Source: a virus. Taken from it: a stretch of 21,207 nucleotides of DNA. Where the stretch lies: the IMG/VR virus record IMGVR_UViG_3300012359_000049, positions 1 through 21,207 of that record; one strand, 5' to 3'. The notes under the pieces are model-generated. The model saw only the letters and a program-made list of their open reading frames with translations, ran no database searches and had not been told where the DNA came from. Shown here in pieces: positions 1,439-20,161 of the stretch (its first letter is position 1; every line of letters starts with the position of its first letter). A program made the position numbers and the translations under genes.

Positions 1439-4400
1439 TCACCTTTTCTTAAAGTAATTAAAAAACTTATGCCATGAGCCTATGATAGCCCCATCTGTGC
1501 AACTTACATCATAGGTATACAATATACCGCCATCGCTTTTCAACATTGTTGATGCTTGTATACCAGTGATGAAATACTGATGATTAATTATCTTGCCTTC
1601 AGGGAAGAATACCGTAAGATACTGACCAGCAGCTAAACCTTCACGCAACGTACTGAATTGGAATGCTGTCGCTAACTTCGCATACTGTGTGAGTCTTGCC
1701 TGAGCAAGCGCGTCAGCATCAACCCGCATAAGCGGCACTGCCTGAAGCGTGCCCTTGCCGCTTTCTGTCGTAGCGATAATGCCGCTAGAATGATCTAACG
1801 ATGCGATGAGTTGCTGTTGGGCGACATCATTCGCGATAGCCGTATAGTCAATACCGCCGTTATATGAGATTGTCAGTATATCTGTTGATAACAGCACCGT
1901 ATTCGTTGCGTCCTGAATAATACTAGGAGAACCTGTTGTAAAGTAGAAGTTTTTCCCATGTTCCACGCCCAACTCGCCAACGGTTACAATTGCCCCATTT
2001 AGTAGCATCGTCGGTTTCCCATAGACAGGATACCTCAAATTCCACGTTGTTGTTGTACCATCTCCCTTGCGTATATCACTGACGGGGATAGTATCAATTG
2101 CGTCAGTGATAAATTGTCTATTTCTATAGAGAGGAGTGTTGTAAATAACTGTCGGCTGTCTTGCCATGAGAATATCGCCATTAGCCGAAGATATAACAAT
2201 GGGCGATGGGTTTCTTGTCACTGTTGTAAAGAGTAGCCCGCGTAACTCGTTTATGTTCCACCACAAGTCACTCTGCGTAGCAAAATCAGATAACATCCCA
2301 TCACACATCTTGGTATTTTTACTGCCACTTGTTGATGATAAGCTCCCCGTATCAATTCCAGGCGCGCGTACTGTTAAGAAAAAGTCGCTGACAATCGGCG
2401 TTTGTGTTGCATCAGTCGTACTTAAATTTACCTGAGTTTGTATACCGACGCCGCTGAGAGGGGAACCAGCCTCACGTGCTAAGATGTTATACCAGTAAGC
2501 AATGCCTCCATCATTGAGATATCCAATATTCCCAACGCTTGTTATATCAGTATCAGCTACTTGAGCAACCTGTACGCCATCCCAAAAGCAGGTAATCAGC
2601 GGCCCAAAGAATGACACATGCAATGTATGATATGCACCGCGTATAAAATTAATCGCTATAGGGGCGACAATCTGCGTAGTAACCGCGTTTACCCGCTTGT
2701 TTATAAACAGCGTTTGCGGAGTGCCGACGCCCGCGCTATCAATCACATGTGCCTGATAATAGTTGTTTATGTCGATATAACGAAAAACGATACCGCTATT
2801 ATTGCTCTGCCCTACAACACAATATATATCCCCATCAGCAGTATCTACTTTATTCCATAGTACTGCTGCATTTTGCCCTCCTGTGAGAGCTAAACGATGA
2901 TTGACCGTATCTATCGACATTACTACAGGCAAACCACCGTATAAAGCTACTGTGCCGCCAAATATACGCGGAACATTCCCCCAAAATACCGTTGAGTAAT
3001 CTTGTGAAGAGTCAACACTATAGTTATCAACTATCGCTAATTGCTCACTGATAAGGCCAGGTAAATCATCACCTGATGCTAACGCATCCCATGTATTCCC
3101 TCTATCAGTTGACACATTCACATTCACGCTAGAGCCAAGTGGCGTTTCTTGCTTCCAACTTATTGATGCGCCGCCCAAATAGGGGATATTATTTCCAGCG
3201 GGAAGAGGAACAGTGCCGCCGAACGCCCGCGCAACATATGGAGATGATACTGGTATAAGTGTCTGACTCGTTCTTGAACCCGCACTCGCATACTGCTGTA
3301 CGACATTCCATACCAGACTTGATAACACCGGTAGTTGCGTCAAATCTGATGTGGAGAATGATGCTTTCACCTTTACGCTCAAGCCCGAGACATTCATGCC
3401 CGTAGTAATGCCAGGGATAGTCCCGCCATTAGAACATGCTTGCCATGTAGAACCCCCGTTTATAGACGTTGATACAGCGAGTGTTTCCGCGCCGCCGCTA
3501 CTATCTGGCCCCCATGATATTTGTGAGCCGCCCGCTGCCCCGACAGCACTGATAGAATGTGATGCGCTTGTCCATACAGCGGGCTGTGTGTAGGGAACCA
3601 TCACAAAATTATCAAACTTTGACGGAGACCCGCTACTATTATGATTGTTATACGCACGTGCGCCGACATACCCCGCTGACAAAAACTTTGTATCCGTCGT
3701 GCTGCCAAGCGCGGTTGATGAATTGTTCCAGTAGACAGTATGCGTACCGCCGACAACGACAAGGCGCACATGATACCACGTATTTGTGATGACCGTAGTC
3801 GTCGCGCTCCACAACTCCGTAGAACTGCTTGTATTAGAGCTGTTACTGGCGCGATGTATCATTACTGTGCCAGGGTCGCCTTTTATCTGCAAGATATATG
3901 CATAGCTATTATCCGCCGAAGACCAATAAGTAGTCCTGTAAATGATAGCCGCGCGCATATGCGTACCTGTTATCATAAGATCACAATCTATGATAAAATC
4001 GGCAACCTGCCCCGCGAAGTCAAAGCGCACATTTGAGGATTTCAGCGCATCGTCTTGATAAATACGATAGATGCCGCTTGATACCGATTGTGACCCTGTA
4101 CCATTGTCATACAATGTCTGCCCTGAAATAGAGCCATTATTCCAATCTCTTGTTATCGGCGTCGTACCTGTGAGCGCGACAATAGAACCGGTAAACGCGC
4201 AATTAGAGAATGTCGCGCCATCCTCGTTGAAAGAAGTCGTATCAGGATAGATGTAAGAAGCTGATGCGCCGCTTGGCGCGAGCGTTAATTTCCCTGTGTT
4301 GGCCGAAGCGTTTATCAGTGACCCATTGCTCCATGAAGCTCTATCTACGTTCGCTTCCTGGAGATAACTCGCAGTGATGCCCTCTGCTTTCAACTGTTGC

Positions 4401-5461
4401 GCATGCATACGCACAACAGCATCACCCGCATTAGTCGCGGTAAACTCATCGCCTGTGTATACCAGCTTATCAACAAGATACGCATTATCTTTCCCAACGA
4501 TGAGAAAAAATGTCGTGAGGGGATTGCTGCCTGAAATTGGCATACGTTCTATTCTATCAATGAAACCAGTAAATTTATTTCCAAGCTCGCCATCATCAAT
4601 AGTGATGGTCATATTCTCAGATAGCGTCATCCCAACGCTGTCGCTCACACCAAAACTACATGTTGACCGCTGGCTTACATCATCCCCAAATGTTAGCGGT
4701 ATCTGTTGCAGTAATATGTCTACGATTGCGCTATTTATTTGTACCCGTAACCCTGTATATGGAACAAAAGCCGATACCAATGCCGCTGATAACGTACCCA
4801 CTCCTGACATAGTAGCTGTCAGTGCCACTGTATTGAGCAAAAGTGGCGCGGTAAGCGTTCCTACGCCACTCATTGTAGCTGCTAAAGCAATACCTGTACT
4901 GGTGAACGCGCTTGTTGTCACCTGCAAATCTGAAGCAACGCCAAAGGATGCTGAGTTAGAAAGATAGAAAACAGGGTTATCGCCGCCCGCGTTCGTGCTT
5001 GAGTCATGCCACCACGCATCAATATACAGTTGGTCAGTTGTAGCAAATGACTGTAAAGGGAAAGCAGTAGCAGGAGAAGTCCAGGTCGTTTTTGCGGTGG
5101 CAGTGACATTCGTGACGATGTCAGCAATATGTGTATACACACCGCCTATCAGCGTGAAGAAGCGTAGGGTGAGGTTTGTTGTCGCACTCTGAAACGCGAC
5201 AGACATGGTGAAAGATGCTTGCCAGTTCGCAGCCGCGAAACTTCCTGCTCCTGGTGTAAATACCCATCCATGTCCTGTTGGGGTAGCGGGTATAGAAGTA
5301 ACTGTCGCGGATGTGCCGCCTTGTGATAGCACTTCAGCATAGACATTGGAGCCTGTTGTTGTCGTGGTTCTACTTGTCTCCGCACCGCCAGTACTTGTTG
5401 ACATATCACATGCGGTTGTCAACCCGCTATCTGCTACAGCGGAGCCATATAAGACCGTCAT
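1439..5461 (-). CDS. Hub/minor tail protein with two inserted lectin-like domains (1340 aa)
   Basis: Likely tail-tip hub or tail-associated protein, encoded directly after the tape measure; start ATG 5461 follows GAGGA. Layout by eye: residues 1-185, a Thr/Ser-rich beta-sandwich; about 192-230, two copies of a 20-residue repeat with core ATMSGVGTL; about 235-345, a hub-like domain whose pattern TCSFGVSD, then ITIDDGELGNKFTGFIDRIE resembles siphovirus hub domain I; about 440-625 and 820-1000, two sandwich domains of LamG/concanavalin type (YHVRLVVVGGTHTVYW and YHTLHVSFFGPLITCFWDG); about 1040-1330, a second hub-like part (DLWWNINELRGLLF, then YRNRQFI). The hub thus appears split by about 670 residues of putative glycan-binding domains. 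No peptidase or lysozyme motif is visible. Hub role is fairly likely; sugar binding is inference. Confidence 0.75.
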   Translation of the reverse strand: MTVLYGSAVADSGLTTACDMSTSTGGAETSRTTTTTGSNVYAEVLSQGGTSATVTSIPATPTGHGWVFTPGAGSFAAANWQASFTMSVAFQSATTNLTLRFFTLIGGVYTHIADIVTNVTATAKTTWTSPATAFPLQSFATTDQLYIDAWWHDSSTNAGGDNPVFYLSNSASFGVASDLQVTTSAFTSTGIALAATMSGVGTLTAPLLLNTVALTATMSGVGTLSAALVSAFVPYTGLRVQINSAIVDILLQQIPLTFGDDVSQRSTCSFGVSDSVGMTLSENMTITIDDGELGNKFTGFIDRIERMPISGSNPLTTFFLIVGKDNAYLVDKLVYTGDEFTATNAGDAVVRMHAQQLKAEGITASYLQEANVDRASWSNGSLINASANTGKLTLAPSGASASYIYPDTTSFNEDGATFSNCAFTGSIVALTGTTPITRDWNNGSISGQTLYDNGTGSQSVSSGIYRIYQDDALKSSNVRFDFAGQVADFIIDCDLMITGTHMRAAIIYRTTYWSSADNSYAYILQIKGDPGTVMIHRASNSSNTSSSTELWSATTTVITNTWYHVRLVVVGGTHTVYWNNSSTALGSTTDTKFLSAGYVGARAYNNHNSSGSPSKFDNFVMVPYTQPAVWTSASHSISAVGAAGGSQISWGPDSSGGAETLAVSTSINGGSTWQACSNGGTIPGITTGMNVSGLSVKVKASFSTSDLTQLPVLSSLVWNVVQQYASAGSRTSQTLIPVSSPYVARAFGGTVPLPAGNNIPYLGGASISWKQETPLGSSVNVNVSTDRGNTWDALASGDDLPGLISEQLAIVDNYSVDSSQDYSTVFWGNVPRIFGGTVALYGGLPVVMSIDTVNHRLALTGGQNAAVLWNKVDTADGDIYCVVGQSNNSGIVFRYIDINNYYQAHVIDSAGVGTPQTLFINKRVNAVTTQIVAPIAINFIRGAYHTLHVSFFGPLITCFWDGVQVAQVADTDITSVGNIGYLNDGGIAYWYNILAREAGSPLSGVGIQTQVNLSTTDATQTPIVSDFFLTVRAPGIDTGSLSSTSGSKNTKMCDGMLSDFATQSDLWWNINELRGLLFTTVTRNPSPIVISSANGDILMARQPTVIYNTPLYRNRQFITDAIDTIPVSDIRKGDGTTTTWNLRYPVYGKPTMLLNGAIVTVGELGVEHGKNFYFTTGSPSIIQDATNTVLLSTDILTISYNGGIDYTAIANDVAQQQLIASLDHSSGIIATTESGKGTLQAVPLMRVDADALAQARLTQYAKLATAFQFSTLREGLAAGQYLTVFFPEGKIINHQYFITGIQASTMLKSDGGILYTYDVSCTDGAIIGSWHKFFNYFKKR
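4780..4890 (-). repeat. Tandem 20-residue coding repeat in the hub protein
   Basis: The hub protein carries two adjacent copies at about residues 192-230: ALAATMSGVGTLTAPLLLNT and ALTATMSGVGTLSAALVSAF. The shared core ATMSGVGTL is identical in both. The repeat lies between the N-terminal sandwich and the hub domain and may be a linker. Coordinates are approximate. Confidence 0.7.
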
Positions 5462-5468
5462 CTATTCC

Positions 5469-8414
5469 TCATTTTAGGTTTAAGTTTAGTCTGAGATTGT
5501 CTATCATGTAACCGCCAAGAGCTTGAGCAAGGGTGCGCCCATCTATCTGCAAGTAAATATTTTGCTCCCCGCGCTGCATGTTGTTGTTATATGTTCCAGT
5601 AGGGACGGTCTGATGCCCAGGAAACGCCATGTTTGGTGTTTTCAACATCACATCCATAGGCTTTAAGAGTGATACCAATGCAGCATTTAACGCTGGCGCT
5701 GAGCGCACAATCCCTGTCGCTATTGTATTGACTAATGCGGGGCCAGTCTTATCTAAATCCATAAGTGGCCCTTCTTTCGCGGGGGAGTGTGGAAGTAAAT
5801 TACGTATAGCCGTTACCGCGTTATTAAATGCGCCTGTTACCCAACTTATGCCAGCAGTAATGCTATTCGCGAAAGCATGCATGATATTCGCGCCAGCAGT
5901 TGCAACCGAGCTTACTAACCCGTTAAGGATACTCAACGCAGTCGTTTTTACGTTATTAAATATTTGTCCCACTCTGCCTATAAGCTGACTAAGAGTCGTA
6001 ACTATCGCACTTACAATAAGCACTGCTTCTATTGATAGCCTCGCGCGCATATTATTAAAATACCCTATAGCATAGTTAACCATACTCATAATGGCCGCTC
6101 CCACTCTACCAGGGAGTGTCATAAAGAAGTTTATAATAGCATTTATCATATCTGGGATAATAGAATGTCCTACAAGCGCATCTGACAAGGCTTGAAACAC
6201 CCCCTTCACCCCATCAACAAATCCCGTTACTATTCCTGTGATAGTGAACCATGCCATTTGAAAGAGACCAACAATAATTTGCCATGCGCCCTGGAATATG
6301 TTGACGATACCATTCCACATAGTTTGCAGATCAGCGCCAAGTTTCCCAAAATTTCCCGTAAATAAATCAAGGATAAGATTAAGAAAACCAGATATAAGTT
6401 GTACAACCCCTGCAACAAACTTTCCTATGCCGCCAATAATAACAATCAAACCAGATAGAAAACCAGCTATTCCCTTGATAATAGCCGCCAAAGCAATAAC
6501 AACAGCTATTATAGCCATTACCAACACAACGCCTATGATTGCCGCTACGACACCGACAATACCGCCCACCATCTTTAAGACAGGCGCAAGTTTCACAAGT
6601 TCTTGCCCTATCGTATTTAGCGCGGGTTGCAAGTCGCTTTTCCACATCGCTACAAGTTGCCGCCACACAGGGAGGAAGTTCGCAACAAGAAAGCCCCATA
6701 TCTGCATCATGGGTGGGCCAAGATGCTGCTGCATCCATTGCCCTGCTTGTTGACACCAATGCGCGAAGTTCTGTAGAGCAGGCACAATATTCGCATCTAA
6801 CACACTCGCAAAGTGTTGCACTGTCTTCACGATATTGTTAAATATCGGTCCGAAGTTCGCCCCTACCCAGGCGATAAACGTCATGAATGCTACGCGCACA
6901 TTTTCAACACCCTGGCGTACTTGAGGAAAAGCGGTATACAGTTTCATAAATGCATACCATGCGACTGCGATAGCCGCACCTATAGCAAGAAGCGGCCACG
7001 TAGCAGCAATGACCGCGCCAGCTAATGACCACATAGCAGGAATAAGCCAGGATAATAACGCAATAGCAATCGTCCCTATTATTGGGACGACAATCTGCAA
7101 ATTATTCTTTAGCCATGTCGCGGCGCCGCCAGCAGTTGTCATAGTCGTCGCCCATGCGCTGAATGATTTCGCAAGCGGAGAAAGAAACCCACTGATCTTT
7201 CCAAGAATACCTTCTAATGCTGTCATGGCACGATCAATTATCTGTGTTTTATCTACCCATTGCCCAAAAGCTACAATAGCATCATGTACCCCTCCCGTAG
7301 CCTTTGAGAGATGAGGGATAATCTGCAAGCCAACAATAATGCCAAGAGCTTGTAATGCCGCCCAAGTACGGGCCGCTTGCATATTCAGGCCCTGTAGTGC
7401 TACTTCCCACCCAAGAACCGAACCTTTGCTGCCGGTCATCTTTTCTATAACGCTCGCAACTGTTTCCCTGAAAGCCTTCATATGCGTACCGGTAAGATCA
7501 AGGAATGCGCGGAGAGAACGCTGACCGCCGATCATCAAAGAAACCGCGTCATCAAACGGTTTTGACATGTATGGGCCAGCTTTTAATGCTGCATCATAAA
7601 CTAGCTGCAAAGCATCGGGGAGAGACTTCTTAATCGTGTTCGCTAACACTGTTGAGTCTAGCCCAAGTTTGAGCATTTCTTTTGACGCTGAAGTTGTTGG
7701 GACGATCAAACTTTGTATCATAAAGCGCAGCGACGTAGCCGCTACAGATGCGTCAAGACCCGCATTGGTCATAGTAGCCATAGCAGATGCGGCATCAACA
7801 AAGCGCACGCCAAATTCTTGCATATACGGGAGTATAGGGCCAAGCGCCGATGCTATCTCCTCAAGGCTTAGCCTTCCATGCGCGACAGCCGCGATAAATC
7901 CATTCATGTACTGCGTAGCGTTATACTGCTTTGTACCATAGTCTGTCATTGCCGTAGCCAGAGCTTTCGCCACGTCCACGACATTCGCTTGTTCTATGAC
8001 AGCCCCTTTTGCCGCCACAGCGAGCGTGTTTTGGGCCTCAGCGCCACGCTGACCTGCCGAAATAATGTTATACATGGCTGTTAATAGTGGCCCTGTCAGC
8101 ACCCCTGTATCAGCCGAGACAGCTAAAATAGCAGAACCCATCTGCTTCATATTGTCAGTAACATCACCCGCGCCTGTAACGAGCCTAATCATCCCTTGTT
8201 GAAAATCACCGGCCGCTTTTACCGCAATAACTCCAAGTCCCACGGCAATAGCTGCTACCGCCGCTACAGCGATAAGAGAGAACGCCGCAAATGCTCTACC
8301 AGCACTAGCAACAGCGCCCTCAGTAGCGCCTAGAGAGCCAATGATAGCATTTACCGCGCTTGTTACCGCAGCATATGATGCTCTAAATGAAAAGAGGATA
8401 CTCGCTATTTCTAT
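5469..8414 (-). CDS. Tail tape measure protein, TP901-type core (about 981 aa)
   Basis: Tape measure protein that sets tail length and fills the tail tube. The family core is clear at about residues 85-300: SADTGVLTGPLLTAMYNIIS, SLEEIASALGPILPYMQEFG and AAASATMTNAGL-like helices typical of PhageMin_Tail/TP901. Long hydrophobic stretches at about 440-490 and 610-682 fit the segments thought to enter the host membrane. The C-terminus has the common LPHSPAKEGPL motif. The frame is open upstream of GTG 8243 to a TAG at 8427-8429 and this part still reads as tape measure sequence (Ala-rich helices). No ATG, GTG or TTG precedes 8243. A perfect AGGAGG (8423-8428) stands 8 bases before ATA 8414, which I take as the start. 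Numbering is from that ATA. Confidence 0.88.
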   Translation of the reverse strand: MEIASILFSFRASYAAVTSAVNAIIGSLGATEGAVASAGRAFAAFSLIAVAAVAAIAVGLGVIAVKAAGDFQQGMIRLVTGAGDVTDNMKQMGSAILAVSADTGVLTGPLLTAMYNIISAGQRGAEAQNTLAVAAKGAVIEQANVVDVAKALATAMTDYGTKQYNATQYMNGFIAAVAHGRLSLEEIASALGPILPYMQEFGVRFVDAASAMATMTNAGLDASVAATSLRFMIQSLIVPTTSASKEMLKLGLDSTVLANTIKKSLPDALQLVYDAALKAGPYMSKPFDDAVSLMIGGQRSLRAFLDLTGTHMKAFRETVASVIEKMTGSKGSVLGWEVALQGLNMQAARTWAALQALGIIVGLQIIPHLSKATGGVHDAIVAFGQWVDKTQIIDRAMTALEGILGKISGFLSPLAKSFSAWATTMTTAGGAATWLKNNLQIVVPIIGTIAIALLSWLIPAMWSLAGAVIAATWPLLAIGAAIAVAWYAFMKLYTAFPQVRQGVENVRVAFMTFIAWVGANFGPIFNNIVKTVQHFASVLDANIVPALQNFAHWCQQAGQWMQQHLGPPMMQIWGFLVANFLPVWRQLVAMWKSDLQPALNTIGQELVKLAPVLKMVGGIVGVVAAIIGVVLVMAIIAVVIALAAIIKGIAGFLSGLIVIIGGIGKFVAGVVQLISGFLNLILDLFTGNFGKLGADLQTMWNGIVNIFQGAWQIIVGLFQMAWFTITGIVTGFVDGVKGVFQALSDALVGHSIIPDMINAIINFFMTLPGRVGAAIMSMVNYAIGYFNNMRARLSIEAVLIVSAIVTTLSQLIGRVGQIFNNVKTTALSILNGLVSSVATAGANIMHAFANSITAGISWVTGAFNNAVTAIRNLLPHSPAKEGPLMDLDKTGPALVNTIATGIVRSAPALNAALVSLLKPMDVMLKTPNMAFPGHQTVPTGTYNNNMQRGEQNIYLQIDGRTLAQALGGYMIDNLRLNLNLK

Positions 8415-8440: not shown

Positions 8441-9087
8441 CTAGCGCGCATTATCATAAGCATCTTTTTCTTCCTGTTGCTTCATCAACAGGAAAAGTCG
8501 CCATTCAGAGATTTCAAAAGACGGCATATCAAGCACTTGAGATAGGGACATGCCGAGGGCGAGTGCAATCTCAAAATACAGTCGGCGCTCGCCCTGCTCT
8601 AGTTTTTTGCCATTTGTACCTGTGTTGCCTGTTCAAGGCCTGAAAGTTTTGAAACTGCGATAGAGATGCGCTCTATCACGCCCGCTGACTTTTGCATCAT
8701 CAGGTTCTCTCTATCAGCAGGTGAAAAGACCAGTTCGCCATTGTTAGGATTTCGTACTCCAAACACAACCATCATAGAATACATCTTATCTACGTCCGGT
8801 TCCATATTCGCACCCATCATCGCCTTCATCACCATTGACCGCTGCCTTCCTGTCAGCCCTCTCAACAATACCTTTGTGCGCCACTCAGGAATATCCATCA
8901 ATTCTTCTTTGATATCGTCAGCATTAAAGATATGCCCGCGTATCGCCTTTGTATCTAACCCAAAGTCTCGATATTCTACGGGAGGTGCGGGAGGTACTGC
9001 CACCCCATTCATGCTCATGTCGTCAGGCATCTCCGTTTGTCCGACTTCGATGTTTTCTAGTGTGATATCTTCGTCTTCAGGGTTCAT
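8441..9087 (-). CDS. Tail assembly chaperone frameshift product (GT-like fusion, about 215 aa)
   Basis: Joint product of the chaperone gene and a short overlapping -1 frame, analogous to lambda gpGT, which binds the tape measure and recruits tube subunits. The zero frame (from ATG 9087) slips back one base at A AAA AAC (8602-8608) and continues for 53 codons to TAG at 8441-8443. The new part begins LEQGERRLYFEIALALG and has the acidic, aromatic, helical look of T-type domains, with EISEWRLFLLMKQQEEKD near the end. No separate start codon or ribosome site serves this frame, so frameshifting is the natural way to express it. It ends 27 bases before the tape measure start, the classical position. 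Confidence 0.85.
8557..8608 (-). promoter_or_regulatory. Programmed -1 ribosomal frameshift signal
   Basis: Slippery heptamer A AAA AAC (8602-8608) in the correct phase (GCA AAA AAC TAG), a 7-base spacer (8595-8601), then GGGCGAG (8588-8594), whose exact complement CTCGCCC lies at 8557-8563. A second short pair, GCCGA (8582-8586) in the loop and TCGGC (8552-8556) directly after the stem, could compete or form a pseudoknot-like fold. Confidence 0.85.
8599..9087 (-). CDS. Tail assembly chaperone, unshifted form (G-like, 162 aa)
   Basis: Abundant short form of the tail chaperone. The first 35 residues are acidic and Pro/Met-rich. The body contains VLLRGLTGRQRSMVMKAM, an arrangement common in siphovirus G-type chaperones, then SPADRENLMMQKSAG and a C-terminal helix ending MAKN. 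The stop TAG directly follows the slippery heptamer, so only slipped ribosomes continue. The start ATG 9087 has AAGGGG but at a long spacing of about 13 bases, so translation may be modest. It lies between the second tube-type gene and the tape measure, as expected for this role. Confidence 0.82.
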   Translation of the reverse strand: MNPEDEDITLENIEVGQTEMPDDMSMNGVAVPPAPPVEYRDFGLDTKAIRGHIFNADDIKEELMDIPEWRTKVLLRGLTGRQRSMVMKAMMGANMEPDVDKMYSMMVVFGVRNPNNGELVFSPADRENLMMQKSAGVIERISIAVSKLSGLEQATQVQMAKN

Positions 9088-9140: not shown

Positions 9141-9797
9141 TTAAGAGGTATAATAGTACACTTGTCCTTGTATCGCAAAAGACGCTTCTTGCGTCACCAC
9201 ACCTGCAACGGTGACTTTCGGTACAACCGCCGTACACCACGCATACATCTCCCATCTCACATTTGCTGACCTGTTAGCATAGAGTACTAATATCTGTAAG
9301 TTATTCAGATCAGCAAGTAATGTTCCATCAGTACGATAGCCGTTACACTTTGCTGTTGCTTTCTTGAGTGTCGCTGTATGCACGCGAAAGTTTGACGGAG
9401 CTTGAAATGATGTTGTATCAACAGTATCACCGCCAAGGTCTAAATTCCACTCATGCATATCTGTGAGTTGTGTTGCTGTCAGATACCAACCCGCATTTGC
9501 CTGTATGCGAATAAAGTTGTTGACACCAGGCGTACGCGCGACAGTAAATACTAACAACCCACCGCAATAGTTAAAGTAGTATGCATCACTACCTGTGTTA
9601 TTGATTGTTGTCCAGCCTGTCGAACCATTGGCTGATTGCTCAAACACAATGACGTGCGAAAAGTCCCAGTACTTATGAGTTGCCGCATTGTAGTTGATAT
9701 GATCGCCGGAGTCATTCATCGCCTCAACAGATGTTTGTTGTACCGATGGCGATGCTGTAAGCCAGATGTCTCCAAGAACGCCTTGTATTGCTGCCAT
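9141..9797 (-). CDS. Tail tube-type protein, longer paralogue (218 aa)
   Basis: Probable tail tube or tube-like protein. Its C-terminal half (about 112-218) aligns by eye with the neighbouring 127-aa protein: HEWNLDLGGDTVDTTSFQAP here against HEWNVDIGGDAVDVTPFGAA there, followed by TATLKKATAKCNGY against GTVKKWSAKCNCY, then VPKVTVAGVVTQEASF against VPKVTATGVVTLEYSF. The first 110 residues are an added beta-rich part with many aromatic residues (HVIVFEQSANGSTGWTTI), which could project from the tube as a decoration or act as a distal or initiator subunit. Start ATG 9797 has GGGAGGG 7-8 bases upstream. Which of the two is the main tube subunit cannot be told from sequence alone. Confidence 0.7.
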   Translation of the reverse strand: MAAIQGVLGDIWLTASPSVQQTSVEAMNDSGDHINYNAATHKYWDFSHVIVFEQSANGSTGWTTINNTGSDAYYFNYCGGLLVFTVARTPGVNNFIRIQANAGWYLTATQLTDMHEWNLDLGGDTVDTTSFQAPSNFRVHTATLKKATAKCNGYRTDGTLLADLNNLQILVLYANRSANVRWEMYAWCTAVVPKVTVAGVVTQEASFAIQGQVYYYTS

Positions 9798-9833: not shown

Positions 9834-10217
9834 TTAAGTTAGAGTACAGGGGCCAGTTCCCTGAAAACTATATTCAAGTGTTACCACACCTGTCGCTGTC
9901 ACTTTCGGGACAATTGCGATAAGTATTCCTGACCCTGACCAGTAGTTTGTCGCATTGATATAAAACTTCATGGTAAACGTCGAGAGAATACCTGCGTTTA
10001 ATATCTGCTGACCATTGGTGTCAGTGACATCGTGGTAACAATTACATTTTGCTGACCATTTCTTCACTGTCCCTAGATGAGCACGCCACGATGACGCAGC
10101 GCCGAACGGCGTCACATCAACCGCGTCACCGCCGATATCGACATTCCATTCATGGACATTCGCAATCGTATTTGCCCCCTGGACAACAGAACCGCCTACT
10201 CCCGCTAATGCAGCCAT
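9834..10217 (-). CDS. Major tail tube-type protein, short paralogue (127 aa)
   Basis: Probable tail tube protein, found at the usual place after the tail-completion genes and before the chaperones. It is short and beta-rich. Its features are HEWNVDIGGDAVDVTPFG (about 22-39), a KKWSAKCNC segment, a central MKFYINATNYWSG strand and a C-terminal VPKVTATGVVTLEYSFQG typical of tube and decoration beta-barrels with a cross-gene VxVxxxGVVTxxxxF pattern. Start ATG 10217 has AGGAG seven bases upstream. It shares this domain with the next gene, so one gene likely arose by duplication. The size is at the small end for a tube protein. Confidence 0.72.
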   Translation of the reverse strand: MAALAGVGGSVVQGANTIANVHEWNVDIGGDAVDVTPFGAASSWRAHLGTVKKWSAKCNCYHDVTDTNGQQILNAGILSTFTMKFYINATNYWSGSGILIAIVPKVTATGVVTLEYSFQGTGPCTLT

Positions 10218-13919: not shown

Positions 13920-15230
13920 TTATGTTCCCAACTGATATATTCTCAGGGCTTCAGGAAGTATTACCTGACCGCCTACACGTTGTCGGGCGTACACGCCCAC
14001 CTGTGAGTTTTCAACCCATCTCTCTGATAGACGTTTGAATGTCATCCCAAGTCGCTGCACAATCATATACGCCCTGGAAAGATCGCCGAAGAGAATAGAG
14101 TTTGAAGAAGAAGCAGCAACCGGCATATCAGGAGTCTCGACATAAGGATATCCCATAATTGTGTTCGGCGCGCTATCCAAACCGCCTTGAGAGGGGCCAG
14201 CGCCAGGCTGCCAGACATACGATGTTTCACCGCCTGAGTACTTCAGTTGTCTGATGATACCTACTGTTTGACGGTTCATATACCATTGCGCACGCCCCGC
14301 GTATACAGAAGGAAGGTCGTATACACAGTTAACTAGCGTATCAGCAGTAGGAAGCGATGACACACCCGATTTCTTAATCGGGATAAGAGGGTGTGTGAGT
14401 ATCCCTTGCGGCTGAATTGACCCATCGCCTGAGAGAAACGCTTTCCCTTCAGCAACCCCGAACTGCTCGGTAATTTCGTTTCTGATTTCTGTCTCAACGT
14501 CAAATGCAGGGTCTTCTAAGTCTTGTTCTGAGATGAGTACGAGAGAGTACATCTCGTTTGTAGGGATTTCAAGCCTACCTAAATTCCATCCCGTCGTATC
14601 AGTGCGCACCGCGCGCTCACCTACCCATGTAGCAGTAGTGAGTGTTGATGTCCGCTTAGGCATCTGCACAGATCTGTTTGATGTTGAGCGCACTTTTGCG
14701 TAGGGTCTGATAACCGAATACAAGACAAGGTTCTTGATGATCTCCGCGACAAACTCAGGAGGCGCAAACATACCGCCCGTCGTATCTTCTGAAACAGTGA
14801 TACCTGTCGTGATAGATGCTTTTGTCTCGAACTCTTTATTCGGCGGCGCATCAAACGCTGATGCTTGATAGAGATGTTTGCGTTCTTCAGGAGTGCAACC
14901 CGCGAAACCCTTGCGCAAGTAATTTGAGAGTGCTTTCACGTCATCGCGCTTTTTTATGATGCGCATACGACGATTAAGTGCCGCTTCATCGACGCCTTTT
15001 GTTTCAAGGATGTCATCCTCAAAGTCATTGTTCTGTACAGACTTTGTCGAGGGTTTCTGCATCTCGCCCTCAAGGCGCTGCAACGTGACCTCCATCGCCA
15101 AACGTTTTTGTTCTGACTCTTGCCCCTTTTCTCCGAAGCTTTTGATCTCTTTTTCAATGCCATCATAAAGCTCTCTGATCTGGTACACCGTCTTCATAAA
15201 CTCGGTGTACTCTTCCTGTGTTAAAGGCAT
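13920..15230 (-). CDS. Major capsid protein, HK97 family (436 aa)
   Basis: HK97-fold shell subunit. The N-terminal 135 residues form a Glu/Lys-rich, coiled-coil-prone delta-like domain (EIKSFGEKGQESEQKRL and following helices), which acts as scaffold and is usually removed by the prohead protease. The mature part probably begins near 137, just before ITTGITVSEDTTGG. It holds family signatures: GMFAPPEFVAEII, the beta region with SLVLISEQDLEDPAFDVE, AEGKAFLSGDGSIQPQGIL (about 260-278), YMNRQTVGIIRQL and a C-terminal TFKRLSERWVENSQVGVYA. The cleavage site is inferred. Start ATG 15230 follows GAGGAG and lies close behind the protease stop. Confidence 0.95.
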   Translation of the reverse strand: MPLTQEEYTEFMKTVYQIRELYDGIEKEIKSFGEKGQESEQKRLAMEVTLQRLEGEMQKPSTKSVQNNDFEDDILETKGVDEAALNRRMRIIKKRDDVKALSNYLRKGFAGCTPEERKHLYQASAFDAPPNKEFETKASITTGITVSEDTTGGMFAPPEFVAEIIKNLVLYSVIRPYAKVRSTSNRSVQMPKRTSTLTTATWVGERAVRTDTTGWNLGRLEIPTNEMYSLVLISEQDLEDPAFDVETEIRNEITEQFGVAEGKAFLSGDGSIQPQGILTHPLIPIKKSGVSSLPTADTLVNCVYDLPSVYAGRAQWYMNRQTVGIIRQLKYSGGETSYVWQPGAGPSQGGLDSAPNTIMGYPYVETPDMPVAASSSNSILFGDLSRAYMIVQRLGMTFKRLSERWVENSQVGVYARQRVGGQVILPEALRIYQLGT

Positions 15231-18367: not shown

Positions 18368-18614
18368 TTCTGTTTATCGCAATCTCGCCCCGTCTACGCA
18401 ATACATGTACAGCTATCACATTGTTGTCGCTATCAAGCGTCTCTATGCGCGTAATGCGAGAACGGTGGGCAACAGTACCCCGATGGATAACAACCCGTCT
18501 GACCCTTACTCTACTGTATAGTATTGTACGAAACATATTGATTACAAGTAGCCCTAGCCCTACATACGCAATAAGCATTATTTGCGGCCCACCCATCATT
18601 TCCCATAGTGTCAT
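18324..18614 (-). CDS. One-pass membrane protein between terminase and portal (96 aa)
   Basis: Small protein with a single hydrophobic segment, about residues 10-30 (GPQIMLIAYVGLGLLVINMF), followed by a strongly basic part with VRVRRVVIHRGTVAHRS. The segment is long enough for a membrane helix and the basic C-terminal part would be predicted to stay in the cytoplasm. Start ATG 18614 overlaps the terminase TGA as ATGA, and its end overlaps the portal gene by 44 bases. I know no assigned family. Its position suggests a capsid-membrane or packaging accessory, but this is conjecture. Confidence 0.6.
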   Translation of the reverse strand: MTLWEMMGGPQIMLIAYVGLGLLVINMFRTILYSRVRVRRVVIHRGTVAHRSRITRIETLDSDNNVIAVHVLRRRGEIAINRNGPRQRRMGSIYKT

Positions 18615-20161
18615 GTAAACAGCCCCTCTTCTAAGAACTTTGCTAAATCAGGATTATGCTCCCGTATTGCTTCTATCTGCGCAAACTCTTTCGCTTCGCC
18701 TAGCTCAATAGCCGTTAACATCGGTTCACCATGCGAATACAACTCGTTGAGAATACTTGTTGCATCAACCTGGTCGTCATGGTCAGCCCTCGGAAACCCC
18801 AAGAGTTGTTTCTTATATTCTACGAAGCCAGGTGTGTTCTTGTCAAAAAAGAACAATCCTAGTGCGAAGTAAACCGCAATACTTTGCGCTCTCGCCACTT
18901 TATCCTTTAAAGGGATATATGGGCGTATCGGATGCCCATTGCCCCGCCCACGCTGAATAATCGACTTCTGATGGCCAACATCTTCTATAAGACAGCACCA
19001 TAGACGTGGTGTAGAGCGTAACTTTGTCCATAGCTTATCCTCAGCCTCCGGCCCCTCCCATTTTTCAACGATTATATCCAATAGTAATGCTTCTCCGTCA
19101 GGAGTAACATCCCAATCCAGGAAACAGGTAAAGTCAGCCTGTTGTTTTGTACTAACGGCAAAGTCAGTAGATACCACGCGTCTACATAAAAACTTGAGCA
19201 CACGCTTATCCATAGTAGCGGTATGTAATAAATATGTTTCTCCTTCATCAACGTACTCCAACATCGTCGCGCCCTTGATGATAGCGCCTTCTTCTAAGAC
19301 AGGTTTCTGTTGATACTGGCTATAATAGTTTAATTGAAGTATTGCTTTGAGAGACTCTAAGACAACTTTCGGAAACTTCTCTTCCCAAAGCGGCTCCCCC
19401 GACTCTTTGCGCGGGTCTTCCCATCCGATTGATGTTATTGTCTTATGCGAAGGGTCATATTCAGACGGTAAACAGAGATACTCCCACCCGCCCTGATCTA
19501 TCACATGACCAATTAAGTCTTGATCGTGAACGCGCTGGCCGAGTATTATCATGCCGCCCGTTTGTTGATCGTTCAAACGAGAAGTCATGGTGTTATCCCA
19601 CCATGCTAATGTGTCACGTCTGACCGCATCGCTCTCTGCTTCAGCAATGTTGTGTGGGTCATCACAAGAGACGATATCGCCGCCTTCACCTGTCGCAGCA
19701 CCAGCAACAGAAGTAGCAATACGATAACCGCCTTTATTGTTTTCATATCGCCCTACTTTATTCTGATCGGGCAGCCACCCGAATGAGTTCTTAAATAAAC
19801 TTTGATACCAGATACTATCTACTAATGCTCTGCACCGTTGACTATCACGTATAGCCAGAGACATGCCATACGAACTACATAAGAACTTAAATGATGGGTG
19901 CCACGTCCATCCCCACGCAGGGGCCATTACAGAGATGATTATCGACTTTGTATGTCTCGGGGGGAGAGCGACCGCAAGTTTATGTATCTGGCCCTTAAAG
20001 ACTGCTTGTATATGCTCGCAGATCGCATCGTGATGCCACGACCATACTAACGGTGCAGGGTCTACATGTTTCCATGCAGCTTTTGTGAAAGCAGCTAAGG
20101 TATCTTGATACGACCATACATCTTGTATGGCCTTGATTTTGTCTAAAGGAGATAGGGGCAA
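18611..20161 (-). CDS. Large terminase subunit (516 aa)
   Basis: ATP-driven DNA packaging motor and nuclease. Walker A variant at 67-73 (PPRHTKS), an ATPase core with GAATGEGGDIVSCDDPHN at about 154-171 giving Walker B acidic residues (Asp167/Asp168), and a TerL coupling segment with MIILGQRVHDQDLIGHV. The C-terminal nuclease part has the acidic set expected for an RNase H-like fold: VSTDFAVS with Asp333, LIEDVGHQKS with Glu393/Asp394, and ADHDDQVDA with Asp460 to Asp466. The first stop upstream in frame leaves TTG 20161 as the only usual start before Met79, so TTG is the likely initiation codon, with a weak purine-rich site upstream. No small terminase is recognisable beside it. Confidence 0.93.
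   Translation of the reverse strand: MPLSPLDKIKAIQDVWSYQDTLAAFTKAAWKHVDPAPLVWSWHHDAICEHIQAVFKGQIHKLAVALPPRHTKSIIISVMAPAWGWTWHPSFKFLCSSYGMSLAIRDSQRCRALVDSIWYQSLFKNSFGWLPDQNKVGRYENNKGGYRIATSVAGAATGEGGDIVSCDDPHNIAEAESDAVRRDTLAWWDNTMTSRLNDQQTGGMIILGQRVHDQDLIGHVIDQGGWEYLCLPSEYDPSHKTITSIGWEDPRKESGEPLWEEKFPKVVLESLKAILQLNYYSQYQQKPVLEEGAIIKGATMLEYVDEGETYLLHTATMDKRVLKFLCRRVVSTDFAVSTKQQADFTCFLDWDVTPDGEALLLDIIVEKWEGPEAEDKLWTKLRSTPRLWCCLIEDVGHQKSIIQRGRGNGHPIRPYIPLKDKVARAQSIAVYFALGLFFFDKNTPGFVEYKKQLLGFPRADHDDQVDATSILNELYSHGEPMLTAIELGEAKEFAQIEAIREHNPDLAKFLEEGLFT

Follow-up and report, generated by a model that had tools for sequence, protein, structure and literature searches.

The window, by which we mean the whole stretch of 21,207 bases analysed, covers positions 1 to 21,207 of the IMG/VR virus record IMGVR_UViG_3300012359_000049. 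The record topology is linear, and the window is probably a fragment of a virus genome. Its main genes all lie on the minus strand and are arranged in tailed-virus order:

18611-20161, minus strand: large terminase
13920-15230, minus strand: HK97-type capsid
9834-10217, minus strand: major tail protein
8599-9087, minus strand: tail assembly chaperone
5469..8243, minus strand: tape measure protein (PF10145, 6e-26; PHROG tape measure families, to 3.5e-41)
1439..5461, minus strand: P0001, 1340 aa, predicted split baseplate-hub ORF

P0001 directly follows the tape measure gene, with a spacing of 8 nt in the ORF list, and this neighbour places it at the tail tip; three smaller ORFs come after it in gene order. 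A separate Dit gene is absent between the tape measure and hub genes of the window, of vir515 (L002) and of many relatives. The major tail protein ORF (9834-10217) is adjacent to a paralogous minus-strand ORF at 9141-9797 (NVHEWNVDIGGDAVD and DMHEWNLDLGGDTVD, respectively; local score 197), which has about 105 additional N-terminal residues. Moreover, a small Gp80-like protein is encoded at 733-1149 on the minus strand (PF23140, 1.3e-32), and small ORFs resembling it precede ConA-domain proteins at L127:2627-2971 and L128:2273-2617.

The two hub halves of P0001

The first-pass annotation had described P0001, with exact coordinates, as a hub apparently split, with hub signatures at about residues 235-345 and 1040-1330 separated by some 670 residues. 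Profile search with a family HMM agrees closely, giving halves at residues 235-370 (E=2e-12) and 1048-1334 (E=3e-48; hhalign E=1e-31 for the C half), so that the hub is split at residues ~370/1048 with a half-to-half gap of 677 residues. The domains of P0001 are as follows, where the individual subdomains hdI to hdIV within the halves are putative assignments:

4892..5461, minus strand: N-terminal module, residues ~1-190; beta-rich by sequence
4772..4891, minus strand: linker, residues ~191-230; A-x-M-S-G-V-G-T-L twice in the sequence
4355..4771, minus strand: hub N half (hdI and first hdII helix), residues ~231-369; family HMM, vir515 match, AlphaFold2 (AF2)
3578..4165, minus strand: ConA-like domain 1 (ConA1), residues ~433-628; PF06439
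3287..3577, minus strand: beta module copy 1, residues ~629-725; phrog_20852, E=1.2e-5
3050..3181, minus strand: beta module copy 2, first part, residues ~761-804; z=7.4 to copy 1
2468..3049, minus strand: ConA-like domain 2 (ConA2), residues ~805-998, inside beta module copy 2; PF06439, 6e-5
2354..2467, minus strand: beta module copy 2, second part, residues ~999-1036; z=7.2 to copy 1
1457..2320, minus strand: hub C half (remaining hdII, hdIII, hdIV), residues ~1048-1335; family HMM, vir515, hhalign, AF2

Scans of viral and genome collections for near relatives of the whole of P0001 found nothing, and a tblastn search of phage records gave one hub-wide relative, the 611-aa hub DBA35119.1 of the Methanosarcinales-assigned virus vir515. 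Residues 64-171 of the vir515 hub align to P0001 260-369 and residues 189-454 to P0001 1057-1335, leaving 17 residues between the aligned blocks in vir515 versus 687 in P0001. Alignment-based scans of IMG/VR gave 18, 16 and then 224 relatives (80 of the 224 were kept in the last scan), and nine further relatives were found in bacterial and archaeal genome contigs. Half profiles detected both halves at 107 loci, and 85 of these have a gap of 6 residues; all but four of the 107 lie within 5-30 residues. Among the 69 non-redundant representatives left by clustering, 67 have a gap of 5-30 residues (usually 6) and no insert longer than 30 residues. Members of the family match PHROG baseplate hub families and, in 20 of 67 cases, PF05954 (Phage_GPD), and the weak Phage_GPD matches in relatives keep the correct order, with the N half at model positions 38-100 and the C half at 224-300. 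The two ends of P0001 are thus halves of one hub that is contiguous in about 100 relatives, vir515 among them, and these uninterrupted relatives argue for a joint fold of the two halves. By sequence, the hub profile had no credible match in the PDB, and hhalign of the family with Mu gp44 gave no significant alignment.

For structure prediction, AF2 was run on P0001 residues 225-1340 together with 66 further alignment rows, the window's own N half being added as an extra row; mixed alignments, in which the hub halves were misplaced, were discarded before folding. Most of both hub halves is modelled with pLDDT 80-97 and the insert with about 30. The pTM is 0.51 for the 1116 residues, a value that suggests that the halves were placed relative to each other, since it could hardly be attained otherwise. 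All 14 PDB matches of the hub model at E<=1e-3 in Foldseek are hubs or VgrG-type spikes of phage, contractile-system and type VI secretion origin, including Mu gp44, MuSo2, Listeria gp18, T5 pb3, HFTV1, VgrG1 and diffocin; these alignments mostly comprise 137-301 columns, too short to span the insert, and so do not prove that the halves pack together. The possibility that the two end parts are unrelated, which the first-pass annotation had proposed to check by structure prediction, is not supported, as they are contiguous in the relatives and both are confidently modelled with the hub fold. The four-subdomain gp27/Tal/GPD fold of baseplate hubs is indicated by the AF2 halves, the hub-only PDB matches and the Phage_GPD and PHROG matches of the relatives, and the position just after the tape measure gene, likewise seen in vir515, is that of a baseplate hub. 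We consider it likely, for this explanation as a whole, that P0001 is one baseplate-hub protein (Tal or gp27-type) of a long-tailed virus, interrupted by the insert.

The domains of the insert

PF06439 matches the whole insert in two stretches (E=2.4e-9) and also matches each domain alone (ConA1, 5e-5; ConA2, 6e-5). The score of both domains together, 38.0 bits, is above the curated cut-off of 26.8 bits, whereas the single scores, 23.9 and 23.6 bits, are just below it. The Pfam boundaries of about 433-628 and 805-998 refine the two sandwich domains noticed earlier at 440-625 and 820-1000. Folding ConA1 by AF2 with six additional rows gave a weak model (mean pLDDT 47), and its best Foldseek E is 3.5e-3. 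Lectins or carbohydrate-binding modules (CBMs) make up most of the top 50 PDB matches of this low-confidence model: CBM66 comes first, and many galectins and the CBM of the phage J-1 evolved Dit are among them; sialidase and alginate-lyase folds are also matched. A lectin-like fold in the insert, as had been suspected, is therefore supported by PF06439 for both domains and by Foldseek for the low-confidence ConA1 model. ConA1 is homologous to the N-terminal domains of two hubs of the family (L114 and L107), and tblastn matches ConA2 to proteins of Stenotrophomonas phages (E down to 2e-9), one of which carries PF06439 itself; IMG/VR scans for relatives of either domain gave little.

The impression that the two domains are duplicated needs correcting. 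ConA1 and ConA2 resemble each other weakly (z=3.5, p=0.008), but the beta module is a clear duplicate. Copy 1, of the phrog_20852 type, is whole (residues 644-721), and the module is also found in Moorella phage MTATph1 (tblastn). Copy 2 consists of two pieces, residues 763-804 and 999-1032, which flank ConA2 and are each similar to copy 1 (z=7.4 and 7.2; 0 of 500 shuffles). Judged from the sequence, ConA2 thus interrupts the second beta module as a nested insertion, and this arrangement replaces that of tandem-duplicated lectins.

The insertion site and decoration in the hub family

In a distant relative, L030 (near-copy L029), the same loop is filled by 182 residues that hold a CBM_4_9 domain (Pfam, E=1.4e-7). 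By sequence reading, the insert starts after EGITASYLQE in P0001 and after GEGVEASF in L030, and both inserts sit in the stretch joining the two helices of the putative hub domain II. Three other candidates for same-site inserts, L031, L038 and L039, were rejected because the inserts are read elsewhere in the hub; L039:7458-11480, a 1340-aa distant hub relative, has a large repeat-rich insert at another site later in the hub.

N-terminal extensions of the Laminin_G_3 or ConA1-like type are found in L008, L009, L047, L056, L075, L109, L107 and L114, and thus lectin-type decoration is common in the hub family, whereas lectin-type domains inside the hub are rare. In L114 and L107, K-S-x-x-L-R-T type repeats, probably a flexible tether, lie behind the ConA-like domain at the hub N-terminus. 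A protein of 918 aa at L128:2626-5382 has a ConA-like domain at its N-terminus, behind which ALxGxGxLT repeats occur many times; these resemble the linker of P0001 at residues 191-230. The N-terminal module of P0001 (residues 1-190) has no match in Pfam or PHROG; it is common to the N-termini of hubs L011, L012, L014 and L015 (E 1e-6 to 5e-14) and matches two separate downstream ORFs in L009, and is a mobile tail module.

The role of the insert at the tail tip

The chain would build domain I of the hub plus the first domain II helix, exit the hub for about 680 residues to form ConA1 and two beta modules, the second of which holds ConA2, and then re-enter the hub, completing domains II to IV. 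By analogy with solved hubs, three copies may form the terminal ring of the tube, with the inserted domains displayed outward at the tail tip, where they could make many weak glycan contacts in adsorption. Because the insert holds two sugar-binding-type domains, the hub, as the end of the tail tube, probably also grips host-surface sugars. Most likely, on the analogy of the evolved Tal and of tail proteins of roseophage R4C, the inserted domains serve as decorations of the tail tip that bind glycans on the surface.

The decorated-hub design is already known. As in the evolved Tal of CBM-decorated siphophage hubs (PMC7291167), two carbohydrate-binding-type domains lie within a gp27-like hub domain, PF06439 being found twice within the 677-residue gap; P0001 differs in having ConA/PF06439-type domains and beta modules, with one lectin nested in a beta module, and in that its hub family shows no detectable similarity in sequence to hubs of solved structure. 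In the Brussowvirus Tal (SW13, TP-778L; PMC9437275), the hub core is also interrupted by two functional modules on linkers, but these are two lysins between sub-domains 3 and 4, whereas the lectin-like domains of P0001 would be inside sub-domain 2. In the roseophage R4C megatron (PMC10276861), a carbohydrate-binding domain likewise interrupts another domain of a tail-tip protein (482-629 within 212-903), though it is a single CBM11-like domain in a peripheral domain of a GTA-type megatron. The hub of vir515 and its relatives are the same hub at the same place after the tape measure, without the insert. What is new here lies in the modules, in the use of the domain II loop by this hub family, in the nesting of one insertion within another and in the family context.

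T5 pb3 and lambda gpJ also have a large insertion in hub domain II, with FNIII nested in the insertion in lambda; these insertions close the tube or are structural, and the parts of the reports cited here mention no ConA-like domain (PMC10038345, PMC10721106). Like the domain II insertion of T5 pb3 and of the GTA hub (megatron), the insert of P0001 could close the tube as a cone or cap that lies beneath the ring and is displaced on receptor binding; its lectin folds would then be structural. Its putative position between the two helices of domain II fits this explanation, and, according to PMC10038345, a large domain II insertion closes the tube in T5 and GTA, as long domain II loops do in p2. 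However, compact relatives without any insert indicate that it is not a general closing device of the family, and the insert is made of lectin-type or CBM modules that elsewhere in the family are N-terminal; we regard tube closure as unlikely. It is quite improbable that ConA1, ConA2 or both act not as binding modules but as enzymes that degrade glycans, forming a depolymerase at the tail tip. PF06439 does include a 3-ketotrehalose hydrolase and an endo-xanthanase/lichenase (PMC9007349), but the match to it is partial and remote, and the best structural matches of ConA1 are the binding modules CBM66 and galectins, even if the sialidase and alginate-lyase folds also appear. Chimeric assembly or gene degradation as the origin of the long ORF is hardly credible, since, although the record is metagenomic and no near-identical second copy of P0001 was found in viral and genome collections, the reading frame is continuous across the gene, the hub start and end are intact, GC is similar across the segments (0.43-0.52), and L030 provides a precedent insert in the same loop.

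Under the preferred explanation, an interrupted hub with glycan-binding-type inserts, large cassettes of this type are tolerated in the hub core of a tailed-virus family that is large, mostly without annotation and has relatives in bacterial and archaeal MAGs; the evidence is the many relatives with no interruption and the one loop that was filled independently. This loop offers a defined site at which sequences may be read for host-recognition modules, and with it a natural way to test for direct coupling between binding and hub opening. A further reading, which we hold to be rather doubtful, is that the domain II loop of this widespread hub family is an exchangeable docking slot for unrelated glycan-binding cassettes (CBM_4_9 in L030, the nested ConA and beta modules in P0001). 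The cassettes would then be carried directly by the moving hub part, and their binding to glycans could help to open the tail tube; if true, the tube might be opened without a separate receptor-binding protein.
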